A stretch of DNA of 64,000 nucleotides. Source: Rhizoclosmatium globosum (taxonomy: Eukaryota > Chytridiomycota > Chytridiomycetes > Chytridiales > Chytriomycetaceae). A program made the translations under genes and the position numbers. Where the stretch lies: assembly GCA_002104985.1 (NCBI GenBank), contig MCGO01000027.1:310001-374000 (forward strand). Direction: 5' to 3'. Position 1 is the first letter of the stretch. Every line of letters starts with the position of its first letter. Positions 20,318-29,947 of the stretch are shown here, in pieces. Below the pieces are notes generated by a model, which ran no database searches, was not told the DNA's origin, and saw only the letters and a list, made by a program, of their open reading frames with translations.

Positions 20318-23993
<3,676 letters not shown>

Positions 23994-24136
23994 ATTTCCC
24001 TTCATTTCATTTATAGTTCACATAAAGAAAAGTATAACTGTTTTTATTTCTGAAAAAAATGTAACAATTCAAAAAACTCAATAACAAAGCTAAGAAGATA
24101 AAAGAAAACACAGAAATTCCAGCTCCAATTTTAAAA

Positions 24137-27100
24137 TTATGTGTTATCTGGATAAGCCCGAATGAACCCTTTTTTAGACCCATCATCAGAATTAGATTCA
24201 TCCAAGCTAATCATTCGCTGAAGCAAAATCAATTGTAAAGAATCAATTTCTTTGATGTGTTCAGTTTGCCAGGCATCTGTTATTTGCTCATTATGATTGA
24301 GTGTAATTGTCAAGGCCCGCTTTGGCAATGTTTCTCCATCTTTCAGTCGTAATTTGTCAAATTCCTGAGCTGCATTCAAGAGCTTGTGAAAGCCATGGTT
24401 TGAAATGTCATTATCATCAAGATTAATGCGCCCATAATAGCGTACATTTAGGGCAGTTGTTTGGAGTTTTGCAATAATTGCGTCCACAGTTTTGTCAGTC
24501 AGTCCGCATTTTGCAAATGAAACATTGAAGTCTTCCCACTCTGGGAGTGCATCAAGGAGACTAATAGCCCCTTCATCTTGACATTGTGATCCATTGACTG
24601 AAATATAGACTAATCCTGTGTACTTTTCAGAAGCTTCAAAATCTTCAATGGTTTTTTCCAATTCATTAGTACCATTGTTGGCAGAAACGTACTCATTCCA
24701 ATCATTTTCTTGATCCTTGAGTCTCTGAGCTTTGTAACGCACACCTTGTTCCTTCATGATATGTCCCAATTCCCTGAAGAAGTCAGGCTTCAACATAGGG
24801 TTTCCTTCTAGATCCAGGTGATGTAATTGATTTGCTTCCACTTTAGCACGTATGGTGTCTACCAGAAGCTTTGAACCCACAATATCATTTTCTATGAAGA
24901 ATCACTCAGCAAATAGGAGGAAAGAGGGAATTGGGGAGAAGTTACCTTGTAAATAGATATCAAATTTGAGTTGTTCAGTGAAGGAGTTGAGCAATAACGA
25001 TGCACCAACATCTCCTAGTTTACAATTGCTGGCATCCAAAGTGTTAATGTTGCTGACATCGCTTGTTAGGGCTTCAACAATAGCTTCAAACCCTCCTGGA
25101 CCACATTGCAAGCCATGAAGATTGACATTAAAAAGTGATCCTGCCGATCCTCGGAATGCCTTTCCAATAGCCATCACTCCAGCAGCATTGGCATCATTTT
25201 CAGAAATGTCCAGGGTTTGGAGCCAGACATTTTGGCTTTCCAATATTTTGGCAACTGCTTTGAATCCTCTGTCTCCAGTCATATTTGTTCTCCTGAACCT
25301 GAGCTCAACAAGTTTGGACTTTTCATTGCTTATAATTCCATCACAAATATCTTCAATGGCAGCATCTCCAAGTGGATTCTGTGAAAGATCCAGAAACGTG
25401 AGTTTTGGAATGGTTTTTAACAAAATGCTCAAGTCAGAGGAGCACATTGGTCCAATGTTGTTATCTAATACAAACTTTAATATATTAGTCATTTGGTGCA
25501 ACAACTCACCTCTTATAGTAAACAAAGTAAGTTTTGCATTAGGAGATGTAAATGCTTTGAATACTGCAGATGCACCAGTTGCTGTTGAGTCATTGGAGTC
25601 CAAAAAGAGAGAGTCTAATGTTTCTTGAACTGCAGGACCAGTTGATGCAAGAAGTATATAATCCTCGTCAACAAGCTTAAGATTATTTAGCTGGAGACAA
25701 GTAATTGGCTTGAAACTATTTTTGAATGTTGTGTGCCTCTGAATAAGTGCATCACAGAGAGGTTTCATCCAAGGTGCAGCCTCCTTCTTTTTTGAAACCT
25801 TGTTACTAATTGGCTGAGCTCCTCCCCTAGCATTTGCCTCATCATACTTCTTCTTTTCAGGAGAAGGTTCTGTTGGAAGAGTATTATCAACTGTATCGCT
25901 CCCTTGTCCATCAATGTAAATCAAACTCAATGTGGCATTTGATCTCACACAATCCACAAGAGCACTCATCAAGCTTGAGTTACTTGTAAAGAAGCGAAGT
26001 GATTCTAATCCAACAATCTTAGTCAACATAGTTGCAAACTCTTTGGGAGCATACTGTCCCTTCATTGAGTTCTTTTGATCCCAGAATCCTACATTCTGCA
26101 TGATAGGCTTCCCAATTTCATACAATTCTGTCAAAAGTTTTAAGCCTGGAACGTCACACCCATAGAAGAAAGCAGTTGCAATCTTCTTGCCCCGAAGAAT
26201 TGGCAAGGGATCCCATCCTGCACCAACAAAGACTGTGGTCAAAGTTGGATGGTTTTTAATAGCCATATGAAGCTTGTGCTGGTTGCAAATATTATTTTCA
26301 GCAAGATTAAGAGCTTCAAGATAAGTATTTTGCTCCAGTGCATCAGCCAGTAGTTCCCATGTCACAGGTTCCTTAAAATTGGCAGCTAAAGAATACATTA
26401 TTATTCCGGATGAATTCATATAGCTGCTTACCTTTCAAGGATATATTTGTGAGGAAGGAGAAATTTGTTCTGATGCCGGCACAAAGAACTTTCATTGTGT
26501 CATAATCCATAAATGGAGACTCTGTTAGACTGTGAGTTACTTGAAATAATGTACTTAAAACTACTCAACTGTTAAATTCAAGCTGAAGTGCTTTAAGTTT
26601 TTCTTGATATTGCTGAATCTTTAGGATTCCCTGTGTCTCCTGTTCTTTATCTGACCCAAAAACTTCCTTCAAGTCATAATCATTCAAGAATTTGATTGCA
26701 AACTCCTTGCTTGAGATATCCAACCTTGGGAAGTGGTTGAAGAAAGAATATTCAATGGCACACTGAGTTGCAGCAGCTTTAACTATTTGCGAGTTGTATG
26801 TCTGAAGTGCTCGAATGAGCTCAGGAATACACCAAGATATTTCATTCACATCAAGTTGAATTCCTTGCAAATTCATGGCAGCACTTAAAGTTGTGCTGCA
26901 AGAAACTCGATGGGCACCCTTGTTGAGAGACTGATCTGGACGTGTCTTGGGGCAATTGGTTTGAAACTTGCCATAGAAATCCAGTGCACTAACACTTTCT
27001 TTGGCATTATTTATAAATACTAAATATAAGCAGTGTGAGATTTGTAGAAATAATCAAAGAGTGTTTGTACCTGGCTGTGGAATGCAAATACTTTTCTTTC

Positions 27101-28524
27101 CAGCAAGTATCGCAGTTTCCCATTCAAGAAGAACATTGTCACCCTTTACATCAGACACTTTCATTCGCTCAGCTGCTCCTGGTGACATAATCATCAACAC
27201 ACATCGAGAATTTTTGAGCCCTTGAACAAAACCATCTCGCCAATCTTGACCCTTCTTCAAGCATTCCTTGTCCCAGTAGACTTTGACTTGCCGTGAATGC
27301 CCATATTCATCCAAAATTCTTTGATCCTTTAAACGGAAGTAAAGCTCCATGGCAACCTTTGCATCAGTTGCTACTCGATAAGAGATGAAGAAGTCATATG
27401 TTTCAGAACTTTTGAACCATTCACCACAGGCTTGAAGTGAAGCAGAAGGATCATCAGGCAATCCAGAATATTCAGTGATTTCCTTTGACATTGTTTCAGC
27501 AGTAGAACTAGCCTGGTAAGAGGTGAGGGTTTTAGGAACAGGTGGAGAAAGAACCGTCACAGAATTCTGGTTTTGAGTCACAGGATCTTGGATGTGTGAT
27601 CCAAATACAGATGATGATTTTCGAAATTGACCCAAAATACCAGATACAAGATTGCTTGACTTTGTAAAATCCTGAGTTTTGGCAGGCTGATATGGAGCAA
27701 TAAGTACAACATTGACAAATATCAATTTTACCATCTCAGCTTGATTTGAAAGCAGTAGAATTTGTTCTTTAGCATCACTGAGTTCTTTCTGTGTTGAAGC
27801 TAATTCTGACTTGAGCTTGATAACGTCCTGGTTGTTTGAATTCGCAATTTGCTTTAACATTGCCGCAACTTGGAGTTTGGCTTCCAACAGTTCTTCGTCT
27901 CTTTTAGCAAGAGTGGATTTAAGGTTGCTGATTTCCAATTGGGCATCAAGTAGAGACAGAAACTCTTCCGGATGCAGCGTATTGTGCTTAATGTTTGTGT
28001 CAATTGCTTTCAAGATGGTTTCTGCATGTTTGATGGCCATCAGATGTTTTGGCCAGCCCCGTTCCGCTGCAGTTTGTTCCAATGCGCTTGAATCACCTGC
28101 ACCAACCAACTTGGAGAAGAAGTTCACGACTGCCTGATTGTTCTCTGCCCTGCGAAGATTCCGTTCTTGGGCGATAGCAAGGGCCAAGACCTTCATATCT
28201 TCCCTCAATGAAGCCTGAATATAGAGGGTAACAAATGAGTCTGATATTAGGTTGATGTGTCACAAACCAAGTCTTGTGCGAGCGCCCCAGGCTGTAACTC
28301 CCTCAACCACGCCTCGCTTTGAACATCTAATACGCTGTCGTGTTTCAATGCATCCACAGTCTTGTCTCCAGTGCCGTCGACCCATTGTTCTGGATTACCA
28401 ATCGAGTCCGCACTTTGCAATGGTGCAGTACCAATCCATTTGATTGAGCTGCCTGTGCAATCTTAAGTTCCCGACACAAATAGTATGTATATAGCATACC
28501 GGCATTCATGGGGGAAAGGGACAT
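24137..28524 (-). CDS. TIR-domain leucine-rich-repeat protein with N-terminal coiled coil
   Basis: Exons 28524-28500, 28452-28268, 28214-27071 (with a probable 45-nt internal intron), 26998-26570, 26521-26432, 26385-25510, 25464-24946 and 24891-24137 join in phase to 1325 residues. Residues about 150-225 are a coiled coil. A TIR domain lies at about 325-445: it starts YDFFISYR, has KVYWDKECLKKGQDW and VLMIMSPGA, and ends with LLEWETAILAGKK. The Glu in that last helix matches the position of the catalytic Glu in SARM1-type TIR NADases. From about 560 to the end are RNI-like leucine-rich repeats, for example LTFLDLSQNPLGDAAI and INTLDASNCKLGDVG. No NB-ARC or NACHT motor is visible. TIR domains act by adaptor-type assembly or by NAD+ cleavage; the role here is unknown. 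It is divergent from the BSD gene at 28788. Confidence 0.85.
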
Positions 28525-28636
28525 AGTAAAATCACAGCAAAAAAAATCAAACTGGGAATTACGTGTTACATAAGTATTTAAGGTCGAAAACCTTCAAACA
28601 TGGACCTCAATAATCAAGCAAGTCACATTTTAGGAA

Positions 28637-28669
<33 letters not shown>
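28637..28669 (+). repeat. Homopolymer of 33 G
   Basis: An uninterrupted run of 33 G lies in the 263-bp divergent intergenic region between the TIR-LRR gene and the BSD-domain gene. It could form G-quadruplex DNA and is also prone to length errors in sequencing. Confidence 0.9.
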
Positions 28670-28787
28670 CGGGCTCATGCAACAGAACTGGACGGCGTAC
28701 TTGTTGGTACGACATTCGTTGTCATGCAACCAAAGACTTAAACAATTCTTACCCTTCCATCTTATTCTTTATTCTGTTCATAAAAAA

Positions 28788-29947
28788 ATGTGGAGCACTT
28801 TGAGCACCTTCGCATCAACAGTAGCCTCTACCGCCAAATCAACGCTTTCAACACTGGAAGAGACAGCGCGTCAAGCCGCCAGCGACCTCGAACAACAGCA
28901 CCGCCTGACAGTGGAAGCAAAGCGCAGTGCCGGAGACAAGGAGGTTTGTTTGGGGGTCTCTTGCCTGTCCAAAAGGGTGACTGAATTTCAACAAAACAGG
29001 AAGACCTGATCCCAACGGAAGTCCCTGAAGCCGTCAAGAAGCAACTCTCGCAGCTTCGTGATCTTGTTGCACCTGCTCTTGGTGGGGTTAGTGGTGGCGG
29101 TGGTGGTGTGGTTGCTGCTGCTGCGTCTGAGAAGGAGGGCGGGCAAGCGGAAACGGTGCAGCCTGTAGCGACAATCTTTACGGCTTCGAATGTTGCTGTG
29201 CTTCCGTGGGAGGTTGTGGGTGCGCATGCGGGGGCACGCGATGAATTGAGGGCGCAGGTGTTGGCGTTGGCTCAGGTAGGACTCCAACCCCCCTTTTTTT
29301 GAGTGTGTGTCGTTTTAGGAGAGACTGACTGCTACGTGCGTGCCTCACACAAAATTAGGATAAGCGTAACTTTCTGGTGCCGCCGCCTGAGGGAACTGAC
29401 TTTGTGTTTGATATGGGACGGTATTTGCCGACTGCCTTGGTATGTGTTTTCTTTTGATTCATCAACAGTGACTCACAATAATTACAATATCTTTAAATTA
29501 AAGGCGATTCTGAAAGTGGATTCGGCGCTGGAACAGATGCGATTTGATTTGGTGCCCAAACAAGTGAAGGATGAAGTGTTTTGGCAAAACTACTTTTACC
29601 GGGTGAATATGCTCCAACAGTCATGCATGCTTTCTGTAGGAGTGGATTCGATGGCGATTGCAGCGGCAGCAGGAGATGGAATGGTGAATGAGGAGGCAGT
29701 GGGTGGAGCTGTTGTTGGCGCTGGCCTTGGAGAGGGTGCTGCAGTATTGGCAGCTGGACGTATTTCAGCAGACTTTGTTCCAGTTGGAGTTGTGGAGAAT
29801 GCAGGGGAGGCAGTAACAAGCAGCAAGGAGGAGATTCCTGATTCATTGGAGGATGCCGATGGACTTGCAGGAGAAGAGTATGTGAGCAGTGAATCATTTG
29901 GAGCAGATTGGGAGAAGGAGCTTCAAGACGAATTGGAGGATGTTTAA
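28788..29947 (+). CDS. BSD-domain protein (DOS2/SYAP1-like)
   Basis: Four exons (28788-28943, 29000-29275, 29359-29439, 29504-29947) give 318 residues in phase. The N-terminus is a helical stretch beginning MWSTLSTFASTVASTAK, common in this family. The middle has FLVPPPEGTDFVFDMGRYLP. The BSD domain follows at about residues 165-225, with DLVPKQVKDEVFWQNYFYRV containing the F-W and Y-F-Y-R hallmark. The C-terminus is acidic. BSD domains are small three-helix modules found in TFIIH p62, synapse-associated proteins and yeast Dos2, which is linked to ubiquitin and endosomal functions. A more exact role cannot be read from the sequence. The stop lies only 46 bases before the next ATG. Confidence 0.85.

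Follow-up and report, generated by a model that had tools for sequence, protein, structure and literature searches.

A candidate NAD+-processing TIR-LRR protein with no NACHT or NB-ARC match in the chytrid Rhizoclosmatium globosum

Plant and animal immune receptors normally link a TIR-type effector and leucine-rich repeats (LRRs) by an ATP-driven switch. A gene of the chytrid fungus Rhizoclosmatium globosum raises the question of what a TIR-LRR protein without such a switch might do. It occupies positions 28524–24137, on the minus strand, of a 64,000-nucleotide stretch of contig MCGO01000027.1 (positions 310,001 to 374,000; assembly GCA_002104985.1), which is referred to here as the window. 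Nine exons are separated by eight introns of 45–54 nt, all GT-AG, and splicing gives an uninterrupted frame that runs from the ATG at 28524 to the stop codon at 24137 (3999 nt, 1332 amino acids plus stop). A sequence-only reading of this DNA had the location, strand and exon number right; the 1325 residues that it gave are seven fewer than this count. The gene probably encodes a functional, cytosolic protein with an N-terminal helical region, an enzyme-type TIR, a conserved connector and ribonuclease-inhibitor-type LRRs. Leaving aside the sensed signal and any immune role, we lean slightly toward a NAD+-processing TIR enzyme that would be controlled by its LRRs and activated by clustering.

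The TIR domain was identified with Pfam TIR_2 (PF13676) at 27093–27392 (C190:337093-337392), with scores of 34.1 bits for the exon block and 33.8 bits for the whole protein (residues 330–433) over a cut-off of 28, in agreement with the sequence-only reading. Most of it is encoded by exon 4 (27071–27686), together with a poorly conserved linker (residues 231–310). The best PDB sequence matches of the domain were to SARM1, and they were weak (E 0.0032). Glu419 (codon 27123–27125), within the LLEWETAIL helix, aligned with the HKE glutamate of the SARM1 sequence DWVHKEIVTAL, as had been proposed. By this alignment, the candidate catalytic glutamate is in the alpha-C helix, a feature of TIRs that cleave NAD+. 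A PADLOC match of the TIR to PDC-S66 (E 3.3e-7), accompanied by two weaker ones, was read as general TIR similarity.

Relatives were collected by word-limited protein searches. The search with the whole protein, which scored the best 7993 candidates by word sharing, returned 10 proteins, nine of them (E 0 to 1e-103) from six chytrid genera: Rhizoclosmatium (2), Siphonaria (2), Podochytrium (2), Obelidium, Entophlyctis and Physocladia. The tenth, the EukProt LRR protein P0010 (E 1.6e-4), has no TIR and was kept out of the alignment. The TIR region retrieved 14 proteins, of which a second Physocladia protein (P0011), three more distant Phlyctochytrium TIR-ankyrin proteins and the JGI protein P0015 were new. 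The TIR of P0011 retrieved 11, the new ones being Nowakowskiella P0016, R. hyalinum P0017 and Zopfochytrium P0018; P0018 combines a TIR with an NB-type domain. The shared architecture for which the sequence-only reading had suggested a search was found in this protein collection, in which relatives from several chytrid genera have TIR and LRRs on one predicted protein. The UBA/TPR/DnaJ N-terminus of P0009 looks like a merged gene model. All 16 TIR pieces aligned have a glutamate at the place of Glu419, within a DNVLLEWE helix in the catalytic register; the set omits P0010, P0017 (WD40-rich, partial) and P0015 (pattern mismatch), whose helix reads DNVLLEYET.

The LRR region follows a conserved post-TIR region (residues 437–586, no Pfam match) that is encoded, with the end of the TIR, by exon 5 (26570–27019). 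It begins in exon 6 (26432–26521) and extends through exon 7 (25510–26385) and exon 8 (24946–25464), the latter with repeats of the ribonuclease inhibitor type. The exon 7–8 block scored 37 bits with LRR_6 (cut-off 23.4); on the whole spliced protein the score, 18.3 bits, was below the cut-off. The PDB matches of this block, headed by ribonuclease inhibitor (E 1.8e-18) and including axonemal DRC5 (1.2e-11) and NLRP3 (6e-11), bore out the repeat type named by the sequence-only reading; LRRC34 and trypanosome LRR proteins were also among the matches of the region. A homologue profile matched ribonuclease inhibitor at E 3.6e-48; to its source, alignment A3, the window protein contributes its TIR piece only and no LRR. 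The model of the homologue P0002 (918 amino acids) has a mean predicted local distance difference test (pLDDT) value of 55, mostly above 80 from residue 641 onward, and Foldseek related it to NLRP3, NLRP14 and ribonuclease inhibitor. Exon 9 (24137–24891), which encodes the C-terminal part and the stop codon, is LRR-like by homology, and searched alone it matched no LRR family. A genome scan with LRR_6 gave 10 matches, none of them at the window gene, and is therefore unfit for counting TIR-LRR genes.

Upstream of the TIR, exon 1 (28500–28524) carries the start codon, exon 2 (28268–28452) encodes a conserved N-terminus (SIKWIGTAP...LAQDL), and exon 3 (27732–28214) encodes a helical region (residues 71–231). 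The P0002 model has long helices before the TIR, at low to moderate confidence, which can possibly be read as a coiled coil. Neither NACHT nor NB-ARC was listed by Pfam in the window protein or in the ten members of alignment A1, and a scan of the window protein for GK[ST] found none. These results upheld the earlier statement that the protein has no such motor, and a cryptic NB domain was rejected on the same grounds. At E 0.01, Pfam matched the window protein to TIR_2 and LRR_6 only, with no ARM or SAM. In a simple Kyte-Doolittle scan no 19-residue mean exceeded 1.1; there was no clear membrane helix, and this maximum disfavors a transmembrane receptor resembling Toll-like receptors (TLRs).

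A tblastn search of the genome gave five family copies (the window gene, C399, C387, C268 and C86), a count subject to limited search sensitivity, and a DNA search gave identical places. Compared piece by piece with the window gene, C399 is 55–78% identical and the other three 28–47%; these three share 95–97% of their DNA with one another and may include haplotypes. The paralogues keep the TIR-then-LRR order. In the tree, copies L017–L019 were unplaced, the surrounding deeper nodes having supports of 11–49. The copy on C399, L020, is the counterpart of P0001, from Rhizoclosmatium sp. JEL0117, and P0002, with a branch length of 0.000 to R. hyalinum (280 residues compared). These sequence comparisons mark the window gene as a paralogue of its own, and among the proteins listed by the word-limited searches none from JEL0117 or R. 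hyalinum was its counterpart.

Between the window gene and L020, whose synonymous sites are at or near saturation, non-synonymous divergence (pN) was lowest in the TIR (0.038), followed by the post-TIR region (0.107), the LRRs (0.195), the N-terminal region (0.252) and the linker (0.389). For the three recent copies, comparison of the TIR gave 10–14 synonymous and 0–1 non-synonymous changes. The part of the LRRs compared (219 and 74 codons) gave ratios of pN to its synonymous equivalent (pN/pS) of 0.03–0.12 in five of six comparisons, the sixth having no synonymous change. The codon pattern indicates that selection is strongly purifying and that the TIR is the most constrained part. A sensor in an arms race was rejected, as these LRR pieces show no excess of non-synonymous change; their constraint suggests a conserved, fixed ligand instead. 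With nine chytrid matches and this codon pattern, the gene is confirmed, on sequence grounds, as real and more than a chance open frame.

Seven of the eight exon joins are gapless against P0001; join 3 is gapped and uncertain. Some further joins had small gaps when compared with P0005 and P0003, which are more distant. Intron 3 (27687–27731, 45 nt) is open in frame and could be coding, which would give 1347 amino acids, and in L020 the sequence is continuous through its place. Introns 6 and 7 are at identical places in L020 and carry in-frame stops there, which shows that the matching stretches of the window gene are true introns, including intron 7, also of 45 nt and open in frame. An Rfam scan of 23900–29100 gave no match at gathering scores.

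The preferred interpretation, an NAD+-processing enzyme under LRR control, would operate as follows. At rest, the LRRs and the connector would keep the TIR inactive, a form of autoinhibition. Binding of a ligand to the LRRs would free the TIR, and the N-terminal helices would hold copies together or gather them. In the resulting oligomer, clustering would complete the active site of the TIRs around Glu419, and these would then cleave NAD+ or produce an ADP-ribose signal; the cell, or part of the thallus, could stop growing or die as a result. Several observations weigh against this interpretation. The TIR model did superpose on AbTir and SARM1, as the sequence-only reading had anticipated, but adaptor TIRs aligned with it nearly as well as enzymatic ones. 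The model is a truncated piece of 125 residues (mean pLDDT 78) with which Foldseek found nothing under E 0.001, and the TIR part of the full-length P0002 model was of such low confidence that it was dropped as TIR evidence. The Trp that precedes VHKE in SARM1 is aligned to Asn in the window protein, and some non-enzymatic TLR TIRs likewise bear a Glu near this place. The match of the LRRs to DRC5 counts against this interpretation as well.

The fit of adaptor TIRs is what would be expected if the TIR were a non-enzymatic scaffold recruiting TIR partners, like those of MyD88 or TLRs, with the LRRs as a platform for a ligand or partner. Partners exist, given at least 92 TIR_2 matches in the genome. 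Nonetheless, the glutamate in catalytic register in all 16 TIR pieces and SARM1 as best PDB sequence match make a scaffold rather unlikely. A second alternative overlaps the preferred interpretation: the TIR would process NAD+ in a developmental or metabolic role, such as self-destruction of parts of the thallus or zoospore, as SARM1 does in axons, and not in pathogen sensing. Family members in six genera, purifying selection that extends to the LRR parts compared, and five copies without large expansion (within the sensitivity noted) agree with it. The genome also holds NLR-type TIR-NACHT genes, however, and LRRs with a TIR are otherwise typical of immune sensing, so that we regard this role as possible and immunity as one possible role among others.

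Axonemal LRRs of the ribonuclease inhibitor type in the match lists (DRC5, LRRC34, the trypanosome proteins) could also indicate an axonemal or cytoskeletal structural protein to which a TIR was added. This is improbable because conservation is highest in the TIR and ribonuclease inhibitors are the top LRR matches. A wrong gene model fusing two neighboring genes is more improbable still: the uncertainty of intron 3 speaks for it, but relatives of several genera have TIR and LRRs on a single predicted protein, joins 4–8 are gapless against P0001, and the paralogues have the identical domain order. Overall, the interpretation given by the sequence-only reading, a receptor of innate immunity or cell death, is partly supported.

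Among known proteins, SARM1/TIR-1 shares with the window protein the TIR fold, a glutamate at the equivalent aligned place, the absence of an NB motor, and additional domains that could hold and cluster the TIR. In SARM1, ARM and SAM domains precede a C-terminal TIR, whereas the window protein has helices before the TIR and LRRs after it. Nucleotide-binding LRR receptors (NLRs) of plants and animals also have LRRs C-terminal to the effector; the window protein differs in giving no NB-ARC, NACHT or GK[ST] match, and, from the plant TIR-type NLRs RPP1, Roq1 and RUN1, in its ribonuclease-inhibitor-type LRRs and extra N-terminal helices. Animal TLRs combine LRRs and a TIR without an NB motor. Their layout, according to PMC2939053, is LRR, one transmembrane helix, TIR; the window protein has the order TIR-LRR and showed no hydrophobic segment of this kind in the simple scan. 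The Phlyctochytrium proteins P0012-P0014 have the DNVLLEWET helix and no NACHT or NB-ARC match at E 0.01, but they are 1918-2318 amino acids long, with ankyrins, and a Pfam LRR match was found in P0013 only; the depositor's name for P0014 is 'NAD(+) hydrolase sarm1'.

The sequence-only reading had called TIRs uncommon in fungi, which does not apply to R. globosum. TIRs are common in its genome: of the at least 92 TIR_2 matches, 86 were over the cut-off, and 28 of the 92 are followed by NACHT or NB-ARC on the same strand at a distance of up to 2 kb, a large TIR-NLR repertoire for a chytrid. The window gene, whose family accounts for five of the 92, shares the TIR effector with these genes and is not among them. 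Many matches look like haplotype pairs, so the gene number would be lower than the match count. At L022 (C335:12000-20000) two tandem TIR matches are inside a single 522-aa open frame, and the HET domain has 17 matches in the genome. PMC2939053 (2010) did not find TIR (PF01582) in fungi, PMC4986451 (2014) reports no NLR matches in chytrids, and PMC9815663 cites TIR for Chytridiomycota NLRs and describes TIR-like effectors from Pezizomycotina. A 2026 preprint atlas (PMC13142454) describes fungal TIRs as almost absent, the few being from Rhizoclosmatium globosum, in a database that is fungus-poor by its own account. No description of a fungal TIR-LRR protein without an NB domain was found in the available portions of open-licence PMC literature.

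Elsewhere in the window, phosphofructokinase frames (22730-23990, plus strand) end close to the 3' end of the TIR-LRR gene, and a run of 33 G (28637-28669) is located upstream of its start, before a plus-strand BSD-domain frame (29303-29944). A tandem duplication (40891 to about 43900 and 46590 to about 49600; spacing 5699 bases) is 97-100% identical over ~3 kb; its 323-aa frames are identical and its 290-aa frames differ at 8 places, none with a Pfam match.

The window protein might represent a class of fungal receptors whose LRR sensor directly controls an enzymatic TIR and whose N-terminal helices replace the NB motor. LRRs and TIR would then be combined outside animals and plants, in a form that related chytrids conserve and that has ankyrin-bearing cousins in Phlyctochytrium; we put this tentatively, at somewhat less than an even chance. 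Together with the TIR-NACHT repertoire, the conserved family of motor-less TIR-LRR proteins offers a concrete setting in which to examine whether NAD+-cleaving TIRs are used by early fungi, and how LRRs may control a TIR without an ATPase switch.
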